IMG/VR virus record: IMGVR_UViG_3300025120_000716
Span: 1-20,685 of that record
Length of the DNA: 20,685 nucleotides
Direction: 5' to 3' (one strand)
Origin: a virus
This document shows, in pieces, positions 2,900 through 11,260 of this stretch. The position numbers were made by a program, and so were the translations under genes. A model generated the notes under the pieces. It ran no database searches. It was not told where the DNA came from and saw nothing but the letters and a program-made list of their open reading frames with translations. Positions within the stretch are counted from its first letter, which is position 1; the number at the start of each line of letters is the position of its first letter.

Positions 2900-5023
2900 A
2901 TGGCTAGAGATAGAAGTATTAGTATCGATGGTGTAACCGGTAAGGCAAAGATTGATGTAATATCAGAGCATTCGGAAATTACAAGTATCGCTTCAGATGA
3001 TTTACTTCTAATACAAGATACCTCTGATTCTGGAAATATTAAAAAGGCAACGGTTGCAAATACAGCACTTGCTGGACCTACTGGTCCTACAGGTTCTACT
3101 GGCCCTACTGGGCCTACTGGACCTGATGGTCCTACTGGCCCTACGGGACCTGATGGTGCTGATTCGTCAGTTGCTGGTCCTACTGGTCCTACTGGCCCTA
3201 CTGGTCCTACAGGTGCTAATTCGACAGTCGCTGGTCCTACTGGGCCTACTGGTCCTTCTGGTACTGCTGCAGGTTTCGGTACCCCCACTATTCAAACAGG
3301 TGCACCTATCGCTGTAACCTCATCTGGACCTGACGCCGCTAAAGTTTTTGCTTTTACTATTCCATCTGGTCCTACTGGGCCCACAGGACCTACTGGTTCT
3401 ACTGGACCTACTGGCCCGACTGGTGGAGATTCAACAGTCGCTGGTCCTACTGGACCTACTGGGCCTACTGGTCCTGCAGGCGCTGATTCTTCAGTTGCTG
3501 GTCCTACTGGACCTACTGGTCCTGCAGGTAGTGATGGTAGTGATGGTTCTGATGGTAGTGCTGGTCCTACTGGTCCTACTGGACCTGGTGGTTCTACTGG
3601 TCCTACTGGCCCTACGGGTCCTAATGGACCTACTGGTCCTACTGGTTCTGCTGGTTCTGGTGTAACCTTTAAAGGTCAAGTAGCAAATACTCCGTCTTTA
3701 CCTTCAAGTCCGACACCATCAAACGGTGACGCATATATAGTCCAGGCAGATGATAGTTTTCATGTCTGGGATGGTTCACAGTTTGTTAGTGGAGGTTCTA
3801 TTCAAGGTCCTACTGGGCCTTCTGGCCCTACTGGGCCTACTGGACCTGGTGGTCCTACTGGCCCTACGGGACCTGGTGGTCCTACTGGTCCTACAGGTGC
3901 TGATTCGACAGTTGCTGGTCCTACTGGACCTACTGGTCCTACAGGTGCTGATTCGACAGTTGCTGGTCCTACTGGGCCTACTGGGCCTGGTGGTCCTACT
4001 GGTCCTACTGGCCCTACGGGTCCTGGTGGAGGCACAGGTCCTTCTGGTCCTACTGGTGGAGACGGACCTACTGGTCCTGGTGGTCCTACTGGTGCAGCTG
4101 CAGGTTTTGGTACACCTACTATTCAAACAGGTTCACCTATCGCTGTAAGTGCGTCTGGGCCTGATACGGCAAAAGTATTTGCCTTTACTATTCCAGATGG
4201 TCCTACTGGCCCTACTGGCCCTAATGGGCCTACTGGGCCTGGTGGTCCTACTGGTCCTACTGGCCCTACTGGTAATGCTGGTGCTGATTCGTCAGTTGCT
4301 GGTCCTACTGGTCCTACTGGCCCTACTGGTCCTGCAGGTAGTGATGGTAATGATGGTGGTACAGGTCCTACTGGACCTGGTGGTTCTACTGGTCCTACTG
4401 GCCCTACTGGACCGAGTGGACCTACTGGTCCTACTGGTTCTGCTGGTACTGGTATAACCTTTAAAGGTCAAGTAGCGAATGTTCCTTCTTTACCAGGTTC
4501 TGGTCAGGCAAATGGGGACGCATATATAGTACAAGCAGATGATAGTTTTCATGTATGGGATGGTAGTGCATTTGTTAGTGGGGGATCTATTCAAGGTCCT
4601 ACTGGTCCTACTGGACCTGGTGGTCCTACTGGCCCTACTGGAGGTACTGGTTCTACTGGTCCTACAGGCCCTACTGGTCCTACAGGTGCTAATTCGACAG
4701 TCGCTGGTCCTACTGGACCTGGTGGTCCTACTGGCCCTACTGGTCCTACTGGCCCTACTGGTCCTACTGGACCTGTTCAAAGTGTTAGTACAACAATTAA
4801 TGCGCCTAGTAGTCCTAGTGATGGTGACCTTTGGTGGGATGAAGAAGATGGTAGTTTATTTATTTACTACAACGATGGTAATTCAGCACAATGGGTTGAG
4901 GCTTCCCCAGGTACAATAGCAGACGATACAATAGTATCGGCATTTTTCAAATCTAAGGTAACCCTTTTAATTAAAAATTCATCAGGTAGTACCTTAAAAA
5001 CAATATTTAGCCCAGGAGTATAA
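2900..5023 (+). CDS. Large collagen-like (Gly-Pro-Thr) fibre protein with duplicated globular inserts
   Basis: The protein is 707 residues. After a non-collagenous N-terminus of about 57 residues ([19 protein letters not shown]...), it is dominated by uninterrupted Gly-X-Y triplets, overwhelmingly GPT with some GPG, GPS, GAD and GSD. These should form a collagen-type triple helix and therefore a trimer. The triplet tracts are broken by two kinds of globular module, each present twice. [11 protein letters not shown]...AKVFAFTIP module lies near residues 123-155 and 401-433. A FKGQVAN...[17 protein letters not shown] module lies near residues 253-301 and 518-564. A C-terminal domain (from about residue 630) contains [20 protein letters not shown], a motif seen in many phage fibres. 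The likely role is a long flexible tail or neck fibre. Hydroxyproline is not expected in bacteria, so stability would rely on Pro and Thr in X and Y. Confidence 0.85.
3070..4775 (+). repeat. Tandem 9-nt-period collagen-coding repeats (five tracts)
   Basis: The DNA is built from a degenerate 9-nt unit close to GGTCCTACT (Gly-Pro-Thr), with synonymous variants GGCCCTACT, GGACCTACT and GGTCCTACA. It runs in tracts at about 3070-3267, 3367-3645, 3805-4093, 4198-4440 and 4592-4775, separated by the non-collagen modules. Such repeats are prone to slippage and recombination, so tract length may vary among relatives or be misassembled from short reads. Confidence 0.85.
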
Positions 5024-5026
5024 ATA
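5019..5026 (+). promoter_or_regulatory. TATAAATA T4-late-promoter-like box overlapping a stop codon
   Basis: A perfect TATAAATA, the T4 late -10 element read by gp55-type sigma, overlaps the TAA of the collagen gene. The ATG of the next gene is only 4 bases downstream. A transcript starting at the normal distance would begin at or inside that ATG, so this box would serve a leaderless mRNA, drive the neck genes further on, or be coincidental. Confidence 0.35.
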
Positions 5027-5030
5027 CATT

Positions 5031-5693
5031 ATGGCAGCAATAGACTTTCCCAATTCACCCTCTAATGGTGATACACATACAGTAGGTGGCGTACGGTATG
5101 AATTTAATAGTGCTAAGAGCAGATGGTTCATAACAGATTATGACGCACCGACTGGTCCTACTGGTCCTACTGGACCTACTGGAGGCACTGGCCCTACTGG
5201 AGGCACTGGCCCTACTGGGCCTGGTGGTCCTACTGGGCCTGGTGGTCCTACTGGGCCTACAGGACCTACTGGTCCTGCTGGAGCTGGTGATATTTCAACC
5301 AATTCAAATGCACAACTTAACTCACTAGGTGTTGGCACTGGTGCTTCTGGTACTGCAGGTGAGATTAGGGCAACAAACAATATTACTGCTTACTATTCAG
5401 ATGAGAGATTAAAAGATGTTCTTGGTGAAATTGAAAATGCATTAGATAAAGTAAAAGAAATACGAGGCGTGTACTATAAAGAAAATGAAACTGCAAAGTC
5501 TTTGGGATATAATAATGACAAAAGACAAGTAGGAGTAATCGCACAGGAAGTACAAAAAGTATTACCTGAAGTGGTAACCGAAGCGCCGATAGATGATAAA
5601 TATATAACAGTATGGTATGACAAGTTAATTCCTCTATTGATTGAAGCAATAAAAGAATTATCAGCGAAAGTAGATAAAATAGAAGGAAAATAG
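5031..5693 (+). CDS. Short collagen-like fibre with C-terminal S74 intramolecular chaperone domain
   Basis: The protein is 220 residues. Residues 1-39 ([14 protein letters not shown]...[13 protein letters not shown]) are an N-terminal attachment-type module found in phage fibres. Residues 40-82 are GPT/GGT/GPG collagen triplets. Residues about 120-220 are a peptidase S74 / endosialidase-chaperone domain: YYSDERLKD at 121-129, then IRGVYY, then [16 protein letters not shown] at 167-182, ending in a coiled-coil-like helix ([20 protein letters not shown]). In this family the chaperone drives trimer folding and cleaves itself off just before the Asp of the Ser-Asp pair, here predicted at S123/D124, leaving a mature fibre of about 123 residues. 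The gene lies immediately upstream of gp13, the position of fibritin (wac) in T4, so a neck or whisker-type fibre is a reasonable inference. A tail fibre is the alternative. Confidence 0.85.
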
Positions 5694-6504: not shown

Positions 6505-7308
6505 ATGCCAACTAATGTTTATTTCGATCACGGTAATACAAACGAACAGCGTCTTTACGAAGATTTAATCATAGAGCAATTAAGTATCTATGGTCAAGAT
6601 GTTTATTACTTACCAAGAACTTTAGTAAATGAAGATCCTGTACTAGGAGAAGATACTGCTTCTAAGTTTACTTCAGCATATGCGATTGAAATGTATGTTG
6701 AGAATACAGATGGTTTTGCTGGTGAACAAGAAATAGTTAGAAAATTTGGTTTAGAATTAAGAGATGATGTTTCTCTCGTAGTTTCTAAATCTAGATGGCA
6801 AAAAGTTTTAGAAGTAGAAAATAATTTAATTGAAACAACTAGGCCTAATGAAGGTGATCTAATATGGTTTGCTAGAGTTAATGCTTTCTTTGAAATTCAA
6901 TTTGTAGAACATGAACAACCGTTCTATCAAATACATAATGTTCCTGTTTATAAATTAAGATGTACTAAATGGGAATATTCTTCGGAAGAAGTGTCAACTG
7001 GATTTGCTGACATTGATACCGTTGAAGATTCACTATCAACAAATATATTGAACTATCAAGTTAGTGTTGAAAGTGGAACAGATACATCTGGTGCAATTAT
7101 GATGGAGTCCGATATAGGTGATATAAGTTTCATTTTATTAGAGACTGCACCTAGTGATCTTTCTACTGTACAAGCGACAGATCAATCGCACAAATTTGAA
7201 ACTGCGTCTGGTACAACTACTACTGGCGATAGTACAGATGATATACTAGACTTCAGCGAAAGAAACCCATTCGGAGAAACTGATTATCACTTCGGGAAAG
7301 ACTTCTAA
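6505..7308 (+). CDS. gp14: Neck protein gp14
   Basis: The protein is 267 residues (T4 gp14 is about 256). The N-terminus MPTNVYFDHGNTNEQRLYED, then IIEQLSIYGQDVYYLPRTLV and the DPVLGED-like stretch, is characteristic of gp14 in T4-like phages. Together with gp13 it makes the portal-proximal neck ring needed before a tail can attach. It starts one base after the gp13 stop, and its own TAA shares a base with the ATG of gp15 (TAATG), so the three neck genes appear translationally coupled. The C-terminus is Ser/Thr/Asp-rich and probably flexible. Confidence 0.9.
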   Translation: MPTNVYFDHGNTNEQRLYEDLIIEQLSIYGQDVYYLPRTLVNEDPVLGEDTASKFTSAYAIEMYVENTDGFAGEQEIVRKFGLELRDDVSLVVSKSRWQKVLEVENNLIETTRPNEGDLIWFARVNAFFEIQFVEHEQPFYQIHNVPVYKLRCTKWEYSSEEVSTGFADIDTVEDSLSTNILNYQVSVESGTDTSGAIMMESDIGDISFILLETAPSDLSTVQATDQSHKFETASGTTTTGDSTDDILDFSERNPFGETDYHFGKDF

Positions 7309-8120
7309 TGTTCGGACAATATTTTTATAATAAACATTTAAGAAATACAGTTATCGCTTTTGGTACTATATTTAATTCAATAGGTGTTAGGCGATACAAT
7401 AGTGCTGGTGAAGCAGTATCAAGTTTACGAATACCTTTAATGTATGCACCAAGAGAAAAGTTTTTAGCCAGACTACAACAACAATCTGAATTAGGATCTG
7501 GCGATCAAGAAAAAGTTTCAATCACTCTACCTCGGATGTCTTTTGAAATGACTGGGATCTCATATGATCCCAGTCGTAAGATTAATAAAAACTTAAAGTA
7601 TAAACACGCAAAAGCTAATGATGATAATAAAGTATTTTCACAATACTCTCCTGTACCTTACAATGTAGGATTTAATCTTTATTCTTTTACTGCCAATTCA
7701 GATGACGGACTACAAATTGTAGAACAGATATTACCATTCTTTCAACCAGACTATACGGTTACATTTATTGAAAGTCAAACAATGGATGTAAAACGAGATA
7801 TACCTTTTGTTTTAAATAGTGTTGACTATGAAGATACCTACGATGGCGATATGACTTCTAATAGAAGAATTATATACACTATGAATTTTACTGCTAAAAT
7901 ATATCTTTATGGTCCAATCACTAGTGGTGCTGTTATTCGTAAGGCGTCTGCTGATTTATATACTAAAATGAATACAGAAAATCCATCAAGACAAGAAAGA
8001 GTTACCATCACTCCTAATCCTTCAAGTGCTGATGCTGATGACGATTACACATTTACAGAAACATTAGATTTCTTTGAAGATGGATTAAATTATGATGAAC
8101 AATCAGGAACAGATAAATAA
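7308..8120 (+). CDS. gp15: Tail terminator / sheath stabiliser gp15
   Basis: The protein is 270 residues, close to T4 gp15 (about 272). The opening MFGQYFYNKHLRNTVIAFGT and the following FNSIGVRRYN, then IPLMYAPREKFLARL and ITLPRMSFEMTGISYDPSRK, fit the gp15 family. In T4, gp15 forms the hexameric ring that caps the tail tube and sheath and is the docking surface for the gp13/gp14 neck. The 3' end overlaps the next ORF by about 29 bases. The C-terminal 40 residues are acidic (ADADDDYTFTETLDFFEDG). Confidence 0.9.
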   Translation: MFGQYFYNKHLRNTVIAFGTIFNSIGVRRYNSAGEAVSSLRIPLMYAPREKFLARLQQQSELGSGDQEKVSITLPRMSFEMTGISYDPSRKINKNLKYKHAKANDDNKVFSQYSPVPYNVGFNLYSFTANSDDGLQIVEQILPFFQPDYTVTFIESQTMDVKRDIPFVLNSVDYEDTYDGDMTSNRRIIYTMNFTAKIYLYGPITSGAVIRKASADLYTKMNTENPSRQERVTITPNPSSADADDDYTFTETLDFFEDGLNYDEQSGTDK

Positions 8121-8757
8121 ATTTTTTTCAAGAAAAAGAATAAACTTAGATATAGGGTTTAGATGTACTCTAGAATGTCCTAAATGTGAGCGTCAACAAG
8201 ATTATAAAGACATAAGGCCAGTTCCTGGAAGAGATATGACTATATCAGAATGGCATAAAATTGTAGATTACTTTGATGAGATACAATGTTGTGGTCAAAT
8301 ATCTGATCCTATATTCAATCCTCACTTTATTGATTTCATAAAAATAGCAAAACAAAAAGATAAGTATATAATGGTTCATACCGCAGCTTCTCATAAACCA
8401 GTAGAATGGTACAATGAGGCATTTGATAATATGGGTAGAGGTGAATGGACATTCGGTATAGATGGTTTACCTGAAGAAAGTCATAAGTATAGAGTTAATC
8501 AAGATGGAAAAAAGTTATTTGAGATGGCTAAGTTGTGTGTTAGTAAAGGAATTAAAACTCGTTGGGTATATATTATATTTAAATATAATGAAAATCATAT
8601 TGAAGAAGCAAAGAAGATGGCTGAAGATAATGGTATTGAATTTCAAATAAACATATCAGCAAGGTTTGATGGACCTGAAGATCCTTTAAGACCTATTAAT
8701 TCTAAATATTATTTTGACAATGAGCGTTTTGCGGTATTAGGAAAATTAAATGTCTAG
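8092..8757 (+). CDS. Radical SAM core protein (N-terminal half of a split radical SAM/SPASM enzyme)
   Basis: The protein is 221 residues. A CxxxCxxC cluster at C25, C29 and C32 (RCTLECPKCERQ) is the radical-SAM motif that binds the SAM-ligating 4Fe-4S cluster. A GQISDPIFNPHF segment near residue 65 stands in for the usual GGE/P SAM-binding strand. FGIDGLPEESH is the typical later beta-strand, and WVYIIFKYNENHIEEA continues the partial TIM barrel. The protein ends right after the barrel. Auxiliary-cluster cysteines are missing here but present in the next ORF, with which it overlaps by 8 bases. ATG 8092 and ATG 8095 are both possible starts, and both lie inside the end of gp15. The cytosolic reaction and substrate are unknown. 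Related SPASM enzymes modify peptides or proteins by radical chemistry. No T4 counterpart is known to me at this position. Confidence 0.85.
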   Translation: MMNNQEQINKFFSRKRINLDIGFRCTLECPKCERQQDYKDIRPVPGRDMTISEWHKIVDYFDEIQCCGQISDPIFNPHFIDFIKIAKQKDKYIMVHTAASHKPVEWYNEAFDNMGRGEWTFGIDGLPEESHKYRVNQDGKKLFEMAKLCVSKGIKTRWVYIIFKYNENHIEEAKKMAEDNGIEFQINISARFDGPEDPLRPINSKYYFDNERFAVLGKLNV

Positions 8758-9199
8758 AGACATAAAAAACAAAACAACTCGTTGGTTTTTAAAAACTGAT
8801 GAGGTAGTTTTTACTGGACCTAGAGATCCAGAAGAATTAAAACCTTTATGTTTAGGCTCTGGTAAAAATAATCAGAAAGACTTAACAGACTGGTCTGCTA
8901 AAATACATAAACAATATACAGATCATTTAGGTGATTCATGTGGATATAATTCTCAAGGTTATATCATGCCTTGTTGTTGGACTGTACAAGAAAAGGGAAG
9001 TGAAGAAGATCAATTTAAACCTTTAATGAAAGATAAGTTTCATATTAGTAATGTGGATAAAATAGAAGATATTTTTCAATCTGAAGAATGGAAAGAATTT
9101 GTAGATACATTGGTTAAAAAACCACAAAATGCAGCTAAGATTTGTTGGTATTTTTGTGGTAGAAAAAATAACAATTATTCTAAGGAGCATAAATACTAG
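8750..9199 (+). CDS. SPASM-like Fe-S domain protein (C-terminal half of a split radical SAM enzyme)
   Basis: The protein is 149 residues with six cysteines. They follow a SPASM-like layout: C34, then C64 in DSCGYNSQGYIMPCCW with C75 and C76, then HISNVDKIEDIFQSEEWKEF (the usual NI-x-x-IEDIW-S-E-W spacing), and a terminal C132-WYF-C136. In fused radical-SAM/SPASM enzymes this region follows the barrel and binds auxiliary 4Fe-4S clusters that help engage the peptide substrate. Here it is a separate frame: a TAA sits directly before ATG 8750, and the first gene's stop is at 8755-8757. The two halves may be translated by termination-reinitiation and associate, or be joined by a +1 frameshift. A single-base sequencing or assembly error is also possible. 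The stop is followed by the gp16 start one base later. Confidence 0.8.
   Translation: MSRDIKNKTTRWFLKTDEVVFTGPRDPEELKPLCLGSGKNNQKDLTDWSAKIHKQYTDHLGDSCGYNSQGYIMPCCWTVQEKGSEEDQFKPLMKDKFHISNVDKIEDIFQSEEWKEFVDTLVKKPQNAAKICWYFCGRKNNNYSKEHKY
9182..9187 (+). promoter_or_regulatory. Shine-Dalgarno supporting the gp16 start at 9201
   Basis: AAGGAG lies 13 bases before ATG 9201, a rather long spacer. A longer open frame reaches back to ATG 9129, but that would run through the SPASM ORF. The Shine-Dalgarno and the protein start MSKIDDKLNEIL both favour 9201. A CATAAATA (one mismatch to the late box) lies between at 9188-9195. Confidence 0.55.
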
Positions 9200-9200
9200 T

Positions 9201-9623
9201 ATGAGTAAAATAGATGATAAACTAAATGAAATTTTAGAAGTAACCGCTGAACAGATTTTAGCACCTGCACCTATAAAGAAACAAGAAGTGGCTGTAGTAC
9301 CAGAATCAAATGATCCTCAAGATGACTTTGAACACGGCAGAGCAAACCTTTACAAGTTAATTGAAAAAGGTAATGAAGCCGTAGATGGTATCTTATCACT
9401 TGCAAAAGAAAGTGAACACCCTAGAACATATGAGGTCGCAGGTCAGTTAATTCAAACAGTAAGTCAAGTATCTCAAGATTTACTAAGACTACAACAAGGT
9501 CTTAGAAGATTAAAAGAAGTGCCTGATACTGGTCCTAAGAATGTGACCAACGCATTGTATATTGGTTCTACAAATGAATTACAAAAACTTCTAAAGAAAA
9601 ACAGTAAAGATGGAAAATCTTAA
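9201..9623 (+). CDS. gp16: Small terminase subunit gp16
   Basis: The protein is 140 residues from ATG 9201 (T4 gp16 is 164). The central region (FEHGRANLYKLIEKGNEAVD, GILSLAKESEHPRTYEVAGQ, then LIQTVSQVSQDLLRLQQGLR) is helical and predicted to form the coiled-coil oligomerisation core of T4-type small terminases. A flexible, Pro-containing N-terminus precedes it and a Lys-rich tail follows. The gp16 ring recognises concatemeric phage DNA and regulates the gp17 motor and nuclease. It overlaps gp17 by 14 bases, a layout that supports coupled synthesis of the two subunits. Confidence 0.9.
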   Translation: MSKIDDKLNEILEVTAEQILAPAPIKKQEVAVVPESNDPQDDFEHGRANLYKLIEKGNEAVDGILSLAKESEHPRTYEVAGQLIQTVSQVSQDLLRLQQGLRRLKEVPDTGPKNVTNALYIGSTNELQKLLKKNSKDGKS

Positions 9624-11252: not shown

Positions 11253-11260
11253 TATAAATA
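11253..11260 (+). promoter_or_regulatory. T4-type late promoter for gp18
   Basis: A perfect TATAAATA lies in the 69-base gap between gp17 and gp18, 53 bases before the gp18 ATG. It is followed by a leader and a clear AGGAG at 11301-11305. The spacing fits a real late promoter, recognised in T4 by sigma gp55 with the gp33 co-activator and the gp45 clamp. Confidence 0.8.

Follow-up and report, generated by a model that had tools for sequence, protein, structure and literature searches.

The SPASM/Twitch enzymes, with BtrN, MoaA and SkfB on the Twitch side and anSME, PqqE and SuiB on the SPASM side, have in common a CX3CX2C radical-SAM core that is followed by an auxiliary Fe-S domain. To our knowledge, the radical core and the auxiliary-cluster domain of the characterised members always belong to one chain. 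The role of the auxiliary cluster in these enzymes is debated. The SPASM domain carries the seven-Cys motif CX9-15GX4C-gap-CX2CX5CX3C-gap-C and two clusters, and the Twitch domain is its truncated version with one auxiliary cluster (PMC6231123). The gene pair described below, herein called R and S, shares with these enzymes the first half of this motif, CX9-15GX4C, together with a fold match obtained from a fused homologue, and differs from them in that most members have the auxiliary domain on a protein of its own, that the order of the two parts is reversible, and that only five Cys are conserved. Abundant radical-SAM genes have already been reported for T4-like phages (PMC7029224, PMC5332604, PMC2853527): according to the accessible parts of these papers, 12 are present in one marine T4-like genome (PMC5332604), others are carried on pelagimyophage islands (PMC7029224), and those of Campylobacter phages CP220 and CPt10 (PMC2853527) are of the same superfamily as R, with one CP220 protein 27% identical to R in our search; a separate auxiliary-cluster subunit, a swapped order and a late-block cassette are not described in those parts. 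Our literature search, with thin coverage of subscription journals, turned up no description of a radical-SAM enzyme with the auxiliary cluster on a separate subunit.

The window (the whole stretch of DNA analysed, a 20.7-kb viral record) comes from a marine T4-like phage, and its terminase is 68% identical to the terminases of Pelagibacter phages HTVC008M and Mosig. Two overlapping ORFs on the + strand (8092-8757 and 8750-9199), located exactly as an earlier note on this DNA had placed them, lie between the genes for gp15 and gp16, and gp16 starts directly after the end of S. The features of the locus are as follows.

5019..5026, + strand: TATAAATA, T4-late-promoter-like by consensus match only, where the neck block begins that extends through R and S
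7308..8120, + strand: gp15, tail sheath stabiliser, left flank (PF16724, E 9.1e-79); 29-nt overlap with R
8092..8757, + strand: R (ORF1), putative radical-SAM core subunit, 221 aa
8164..8187, + strand: CxxxCxxC radical-SAM cluster motif (C25, C29, C32), each Cys in 61/61 aligned rows
8290..8310, + strand: CGQISDP motif, probably equivalent to the GGEP SAM-binding motif whose place it takes; G, S and D invariant in the alignment, C and P nearly so
8461..8508, + strand: DGLPEESHKYRVNQDG, family signature taken from the alignment, which served as genome search pattern
8750..8757, + strand: start-stop overlap ATGTCTAG of 8 nt, R stop and S start
8750..9199, + strand: S (ORF2), putative separate auxiliary Fe-S subunit of Twitch type, 149 aa, in the +1 frame relative to ORF1
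8849..8851, + strand: C34, first predicted auxiliary-cluster Cys, present in 61/63 S rows
8972..8977, + strand: C75-C76 of the GX4CC hairpin
9143..9157, + strand: C132-x3-C136, predicted last ligands of the auxiliary cluster, invariant
9188..9195, + strand: CATAAATA, one mismatch from the late-promoter octamer, immediately before gp16
9201..9623, + strand: gp16, small terminase, right flank, ATG at 9201 (phrog_445, E 1.7e-39)

R of the window matches the phage radical-SAM family phrog_21308 (E 2e-13) and NCBIfam radical-SAM models. The Radical_SAM model PF04055 matches 8 of 13 ORF1 relatives, and gave no match to the window's own ORF1 in the Pfam search; Pfam and PHROG support the family clearly and the two window proteins weakly. 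The hallmark of the radical SAM superfamily, CX3CX2C in a partial TIM barrel, was recognized from the motif in all 61 rows, from these PF04055 matches and from the predicted fold of a fused relative. The CxxxCxxC motif reported previously for this ORF is thus present, but position 8757, given as its end, is the end of the ORF. A Pfam Sulfatase match to R (E 4.5e-4, below cut-off) was taken as chance because the fold and the Cys motif indicate radical SAM, and the sequence search of PDB with the R profile returned only a weak GDGT-MAS match. Assignment to two known families was rejected: for the MoaA GTP 3',8-cyclase, TIGR02666 gave 18.8 bits for a fused relative against a cut-off of 284 and was not among the model matches of the window R, and TIGR04317, the model for the tungsten cofactor oxidoreductase maturase, requires 380 bits, whereas R scored 27.7 and the highest-scoring fused relative 44.8.

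S of the window contains six Cys (C34, C64, C75, C76, C132 and C136) in agreement with the earlier description of a six-Cys SPASM-like domain, but only five of them are conserved, C64 being found in 1 of 63 aligned S sequences, and the domain is of Twitch type rather than a seven-Cys SPASM. The conserved spacing is C..GX4CC..CX3C. The SPASM model PF13186 scored 20.3 bits against the window ORF2, slightly below the cut-off of 21.5, and matched 9 of 12 close ORF2 relatives (up to E = 0.1); the CX2CX5CX3C part of the SPASM motif is absent. In a Twitch domain, the first Cys and the GX4C hairpin are succeeded by a Cys pair located behind the second helix. The GX4C and CX3C spacing of Twitch is present in all 61 rows having the first Cys. 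The C-to-G spacing is 11-15 in 45 of these 61 rows and is longer in the window clade, in which about 20 additional residues separate the first Cys from the hairpin. Since S keeps the first Cys, the GX4C and the CX3C pair without the middle CX2CX5CX3C, it is, as judged from this Cys pattern, a Twitch-type domain with one predicted auxiliary cluster. A sequence search of PDB with the S profile returned nothing meaningful. Some S proteins (L038:5620-6549, L043:5645-6787 and L060:5644-6729) are extended at the C terminus by about 200 aa or more, and no Pfam match was found for the added part; the extension of L041, a locus with a layout near-identical to that of L038, is a separate ORF in L162 (3504-4097).

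The fold was predicted for a natural fusion, L093, of which the R part is about 45% identical to the window R, using 110 aligned sequences. The model (pLDDT 90.6, pTM 0.90) aligns over nearly its whole length with BlsE (Z 18.5), SuiB (18.5), SkfB (17.5), MoaA (17.5), PqqE (16.8), anSME (16.1) and BtrN (14.9). The top Foldseek match, BlsE, the blasticidin S radical-SAM decarboxylase (7vob), was aligned over 255 residues at 15% identity, its Z score being tied for the highest; it differs from the R-S pair in being a single chain of an antibiotic pathway without close sequence relation. The combined fold that the earlier note had proposed to look for is therefore predicted for this fused relative, with Twitch instead of SPASM as the auxiliary part, in agreement with its matches to the Twitch enzymes MoaA and BtrN. 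S alone was predicted with pLDDT of 57.8, whereas most of this region reached about 82-96 within the fused chain, and the S-only model was too poor for a fold search; such a low value might be expected of a domain that needs its partner, which is weak evidence, and could stem from the alignment instead of the missing partner. The combination of a radical core with one auxiliary cluster is well supported, as a prediction, by the sequences and the modelled fold of the relative.

Profile searches identified 299 viral stretches encoding ORF1 relatives and 259 encoding ORF2 relatives, so that the ORF pair is more than chance; the loci were read for the best 80 of 299 with the R profile and the best 80 of 259 with the S profile. 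Among 116 distinct viral R sequences, S is a separate ORF downstream in 63 and upstream in 32, and is fused to R in 15, although a few of the upstream and downstream assignments within tandem arrays are ambiguous. The fusions, together with the single fold of the fused relative, agree with the claim that R and S each make up one half of a single type of enzyme, but the idea that such halves are normally one polypeptide does not hold for the R-S family, in which the split state is the commoner; both states, and the swapped order in addition, occur in related phages. On a tree of the 116 R sequences at least 9 changes of arrangement and at least 8 changes of location were counted, which are minima only because the tree was a quick one with long branches.

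The split itself could be explained by a single gene broken by a frameshift, due to a sequencing error or to decay into a pseudogene, in line with the existence of single-ORF fusions among the relatives and with the position of the split within the inter-domain linker. Against this explanation, the 8-nt overlap was found again in independent contigs with R up to about 29% apart, and the more distant pairs employ other overlaps (1, 4, 7, 8, 11, 14, 38 nt and more among all split pairs) and either of the other frames; the gene order is reversed in 32 sequences; substitution is constrained in both ORFs against the three closest relatives (pN/pS 0.13-0.19 for ORF1 and 0.21-0.28 for ORF2); and the cultured phage Mosig shows the identical split. 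Refuted by the permuted and interrupted arrangements, a broken gene is extremely improbable. Hardly more credible is programmed +1 ribosomal frameshifting that fuses ORF1 and ORF2 into a single polypeptide: the AATGTCTAR sequence is kept among close relatives and ORF2 lies in the +1 frame, but S of other lineages lies in the -1 frame with ATGA or TTGA overlaps, overlaps by more, or stands in the swapped order, ORF2 begins with an ATG of its own precisely at the junction, and RNA structure at the junction is not above that of shuffled sequences (z -1.1). It was rejected on the basis of overlaps, frames, gene order and RNA folding. Overlaps that vary in both length and frame thus argue that the split is neither a sequencing error nor a pseudogene nor a programmed frameshift, and the occurrence of fused, split and swapped-order halves among the relatives indicates true partner subunits instead of a broken gene. 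We conclude that R and S are very probably two subunits of one radical-SAM/Twitch enzyme.

Further arrangements were observed within the family. In L151:2769-5234 and L152:2769-5234, R and S are separated by a gene for a B12-binding radical-SAM protein of 536 aa, and in L031:4860-5482 and L032:2569-3191 two different S genes stand in tandem after a single R, the Twitch subunit being duplicated there on its own. Split, swapped, interrupted and duplicated arrangements of this kind point to start-stop coupling of two separate proteins. Two diverged R-S pairs stand in tandem within a single 15/16 gap (L011:2219-4291), and four S-R pairs form two tandem sets in L143:3523-8516. The pairing is not absolute, because R without S is located immediately before gp16 in L014:4998-5700, either as a natural S deletion or as a decaying allele, and S without R adjoins a 2OG-Fe(II) oxygenase in L098:4274-5381 and L099:4274-5381. 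Distances of R and S are correlated with r of 0.77 (permutation maximum 0.11), and for a non-redundant set of 41 pairs the co-divergence falls to r of 0.26, at about the 99.9% permutation level, which may mirror little beyond shared descent.

A cultured homologue of the split pair is present in Pelagibacter phage Mosig EXVC030M as genes 00084/00085 (MT647606.1 62425-63391; L002:4986-5952), with R 45% identical to that of the window and with the 8-nt overlap as well. These two genes are annotated as molybdenum cofactor enzyme and hypothetical protein, and are located in an island together with a nitroreductase, an aminotransferase, a carbamoyltransferase and two more putative MoaA-like genes. 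The neighbours of island R-S pairs include N-terminal-Twitch radical-SAM proteins (NF033640), in which the auxiliary Fe-S domain precedes the radical-SAM domain. They were rejected as swapped-order R-S fusions; NF033640 is a separate subfamily that matches the R and S profiles weakly and is one fused chain in the members seen.

An independent search seeded with gp15 yielded 25 close relatives in which both flanks are present and gp15 shares at least 79% identity. Among these, R and S lie between 15 and 16 in 14, R stands there without S in one, and the site is empty, with 21-29 nt, in 10. The window and the empty alleles match up to the gp15 stop. For 41 more distant phages from the same search, no R-S pair was found in the 15/16 gap. 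Elsewhere, R-S pairs were identified between 16 and 17, between 17 and 18 in the S-R order, and in host-recognition islands, where the neighbours also include glycosyltransferases and carbamoyltransferase. The R-S pair is therefore an accessory cassette, variably present at several positions of the late block; its interpretation as an insertion between 15 and 16 is borne out by the empty sites, but it is not confined to that gap. Other cargo occupies these late gaps or their vicinity in HTVC008M, Mosig and Melnitz, indicating that the late block is a general landing zone. Two collagen-like ORFs with GPT repeats (window 2900-5693) are located immediately 5' of the neck genes, and the related locus L023 has a Peptidase_S74 chaperone domain with collagen repeats at the same place.

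Besides the one at 5019, exact TATAAATA sequences occur at 11253, 13843, 15901, 17776 and 20357. All six sites are on the + strand, 12-61 nt 5' of an ORF, as expected of T4-type late promoters. No exact site was found directly before R, and at the position of CATAAATA the empty-site relative L197 has TATAAATA. From these sequence matches, R and S would most simply be read through together with the neck genes, and the late co-expression suggested earlier is plausible.

Outside phages, a search of 84,980 species genomes identified relatives in 10 only, of which 8 adjoin genes common to the viral loci and have the appearance of phage contigs within MAGs; an origin from the host was rejected on this ground. 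The two exceptions, L164 and L165, are Hyphomicrobiales contigs that carry the R-S pair (3960-4903 in both) among ordinary chromosomal genes in differing contexts, that of L165 including IMP dehydrogenase, RsmB, GMP synthase and an SbmA/BacA peptide transporter, the latter gene 3' of R-S perhaps by chance. The DNA of the two contigs is 81% identical over the two genes only, beginning at the start of R and ending at the stop of S, which indicates that the two-gene unit is self-contained there, without a travelling precursor peptide. This agrees with the earlier remark that no small precursor peptide lies nearby. RiPP maturases of the SuiB/SkfB type have an RRE domain and a precursor peptide beside the enzyme; in R the barrel follows the start of the protein after no more than a few residues, and in a non-systematic look no candidate precursor was seen beside it. 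One further match was found among 397 sampled Hyphomicrobiales genomes, and only these two among 200 genomes of the L164/L165 family; plasmids gave nothing nearer than Nocardia proteins of 25% identity.

As the enzyme is pictured here, R and S would be made together by start-stop translational coupling from a late neck/terminase transcript and would associate into a heterodimer. R would bind a [4Fe-4S] cluster through C25, C29 and C32 within a partial TIM barrel and generate the 5'-deoxyadenosyl radical from SAM, and S would dock at the place of the MoaA/BtrN Twitch domain, holding one auxiliary [4Fe-4S] cluster through C34, C75 or C76, C132 and C136, which may bind the substrate or accept the second electron.

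As to the substrate, the late-block position and the peptide-acting relatives point to a virion or host protein, a proposal we regard as doubtful. In its phage form, a virion protein such as neck, sheath or collagen-like fibre would be modified late by the two-subunit enzyme; several separate R clades are found in the 15-16-17-18 block, the peptide modifiers SuiB, SkfB, anSME and PqqE are among the fold relatives, and the collagen-like fibre ORFs lie immediately upstream. Yet the cassette is missing from about 40% of close relatives, in which gp15 is still nearly identical, R-S stands alone on two bacterial chromosomes, and position alone says little on the substrate because the late block receives unrelated cargo as well and the main locus set was sampled from a late-block query; a virion protein, too, is rather unlikely. 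A sugar, nucleotide-sugar or other small molecule, processed by the two-subunit enzyme for alteration of the host surface or of glycans, is still a tentative assignment, though at least as likely as a protein. The island copies adjoin GT8 glycosyltransferases, a carbamoyltransferase, an ArnB-like aminotransferase and a methyltransferase, and because of such neighbours a sugar or glycan substrate might be tied, by weak inference, to decoration of host surface or fibre. Small molecules are the substrates of the one-cluster Twitch enzymes BtrN and MoaA and also of BlsE, a nucleoside enzyme (PMC6231123, PMC3715490), and R plus S leave little sequence for a RiPP recognition element. On the other hand, the island neighbours need not bear on the isolated late-block copies, and, among members of this subfamily, similarity does not predict function (PMC6231123).

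Taken as a family, R and S probably represent an obligate two-subunit group of radical-SAM enzymes, described here for the first time as far as the searched literature shows, with the auxiliary cluster on a separate, exchangeable protein, with swaps of order, duplication of S alone (L031/L032) and repeated fusion and fission, and kept mainly by marine T4-like phages. Some of the 'hypothetical proteins' beside phage radical-SAM genes, such as that of Mosig, would then be the missing Fe-S subunit. The natural separation of the two halves would allow each to be purified, mixed across phages and used for probing the role of the auxiliary cluster. For the ocean phages themselves, the pair forms an on/off cassette in the virion block, the effect of which is testable.
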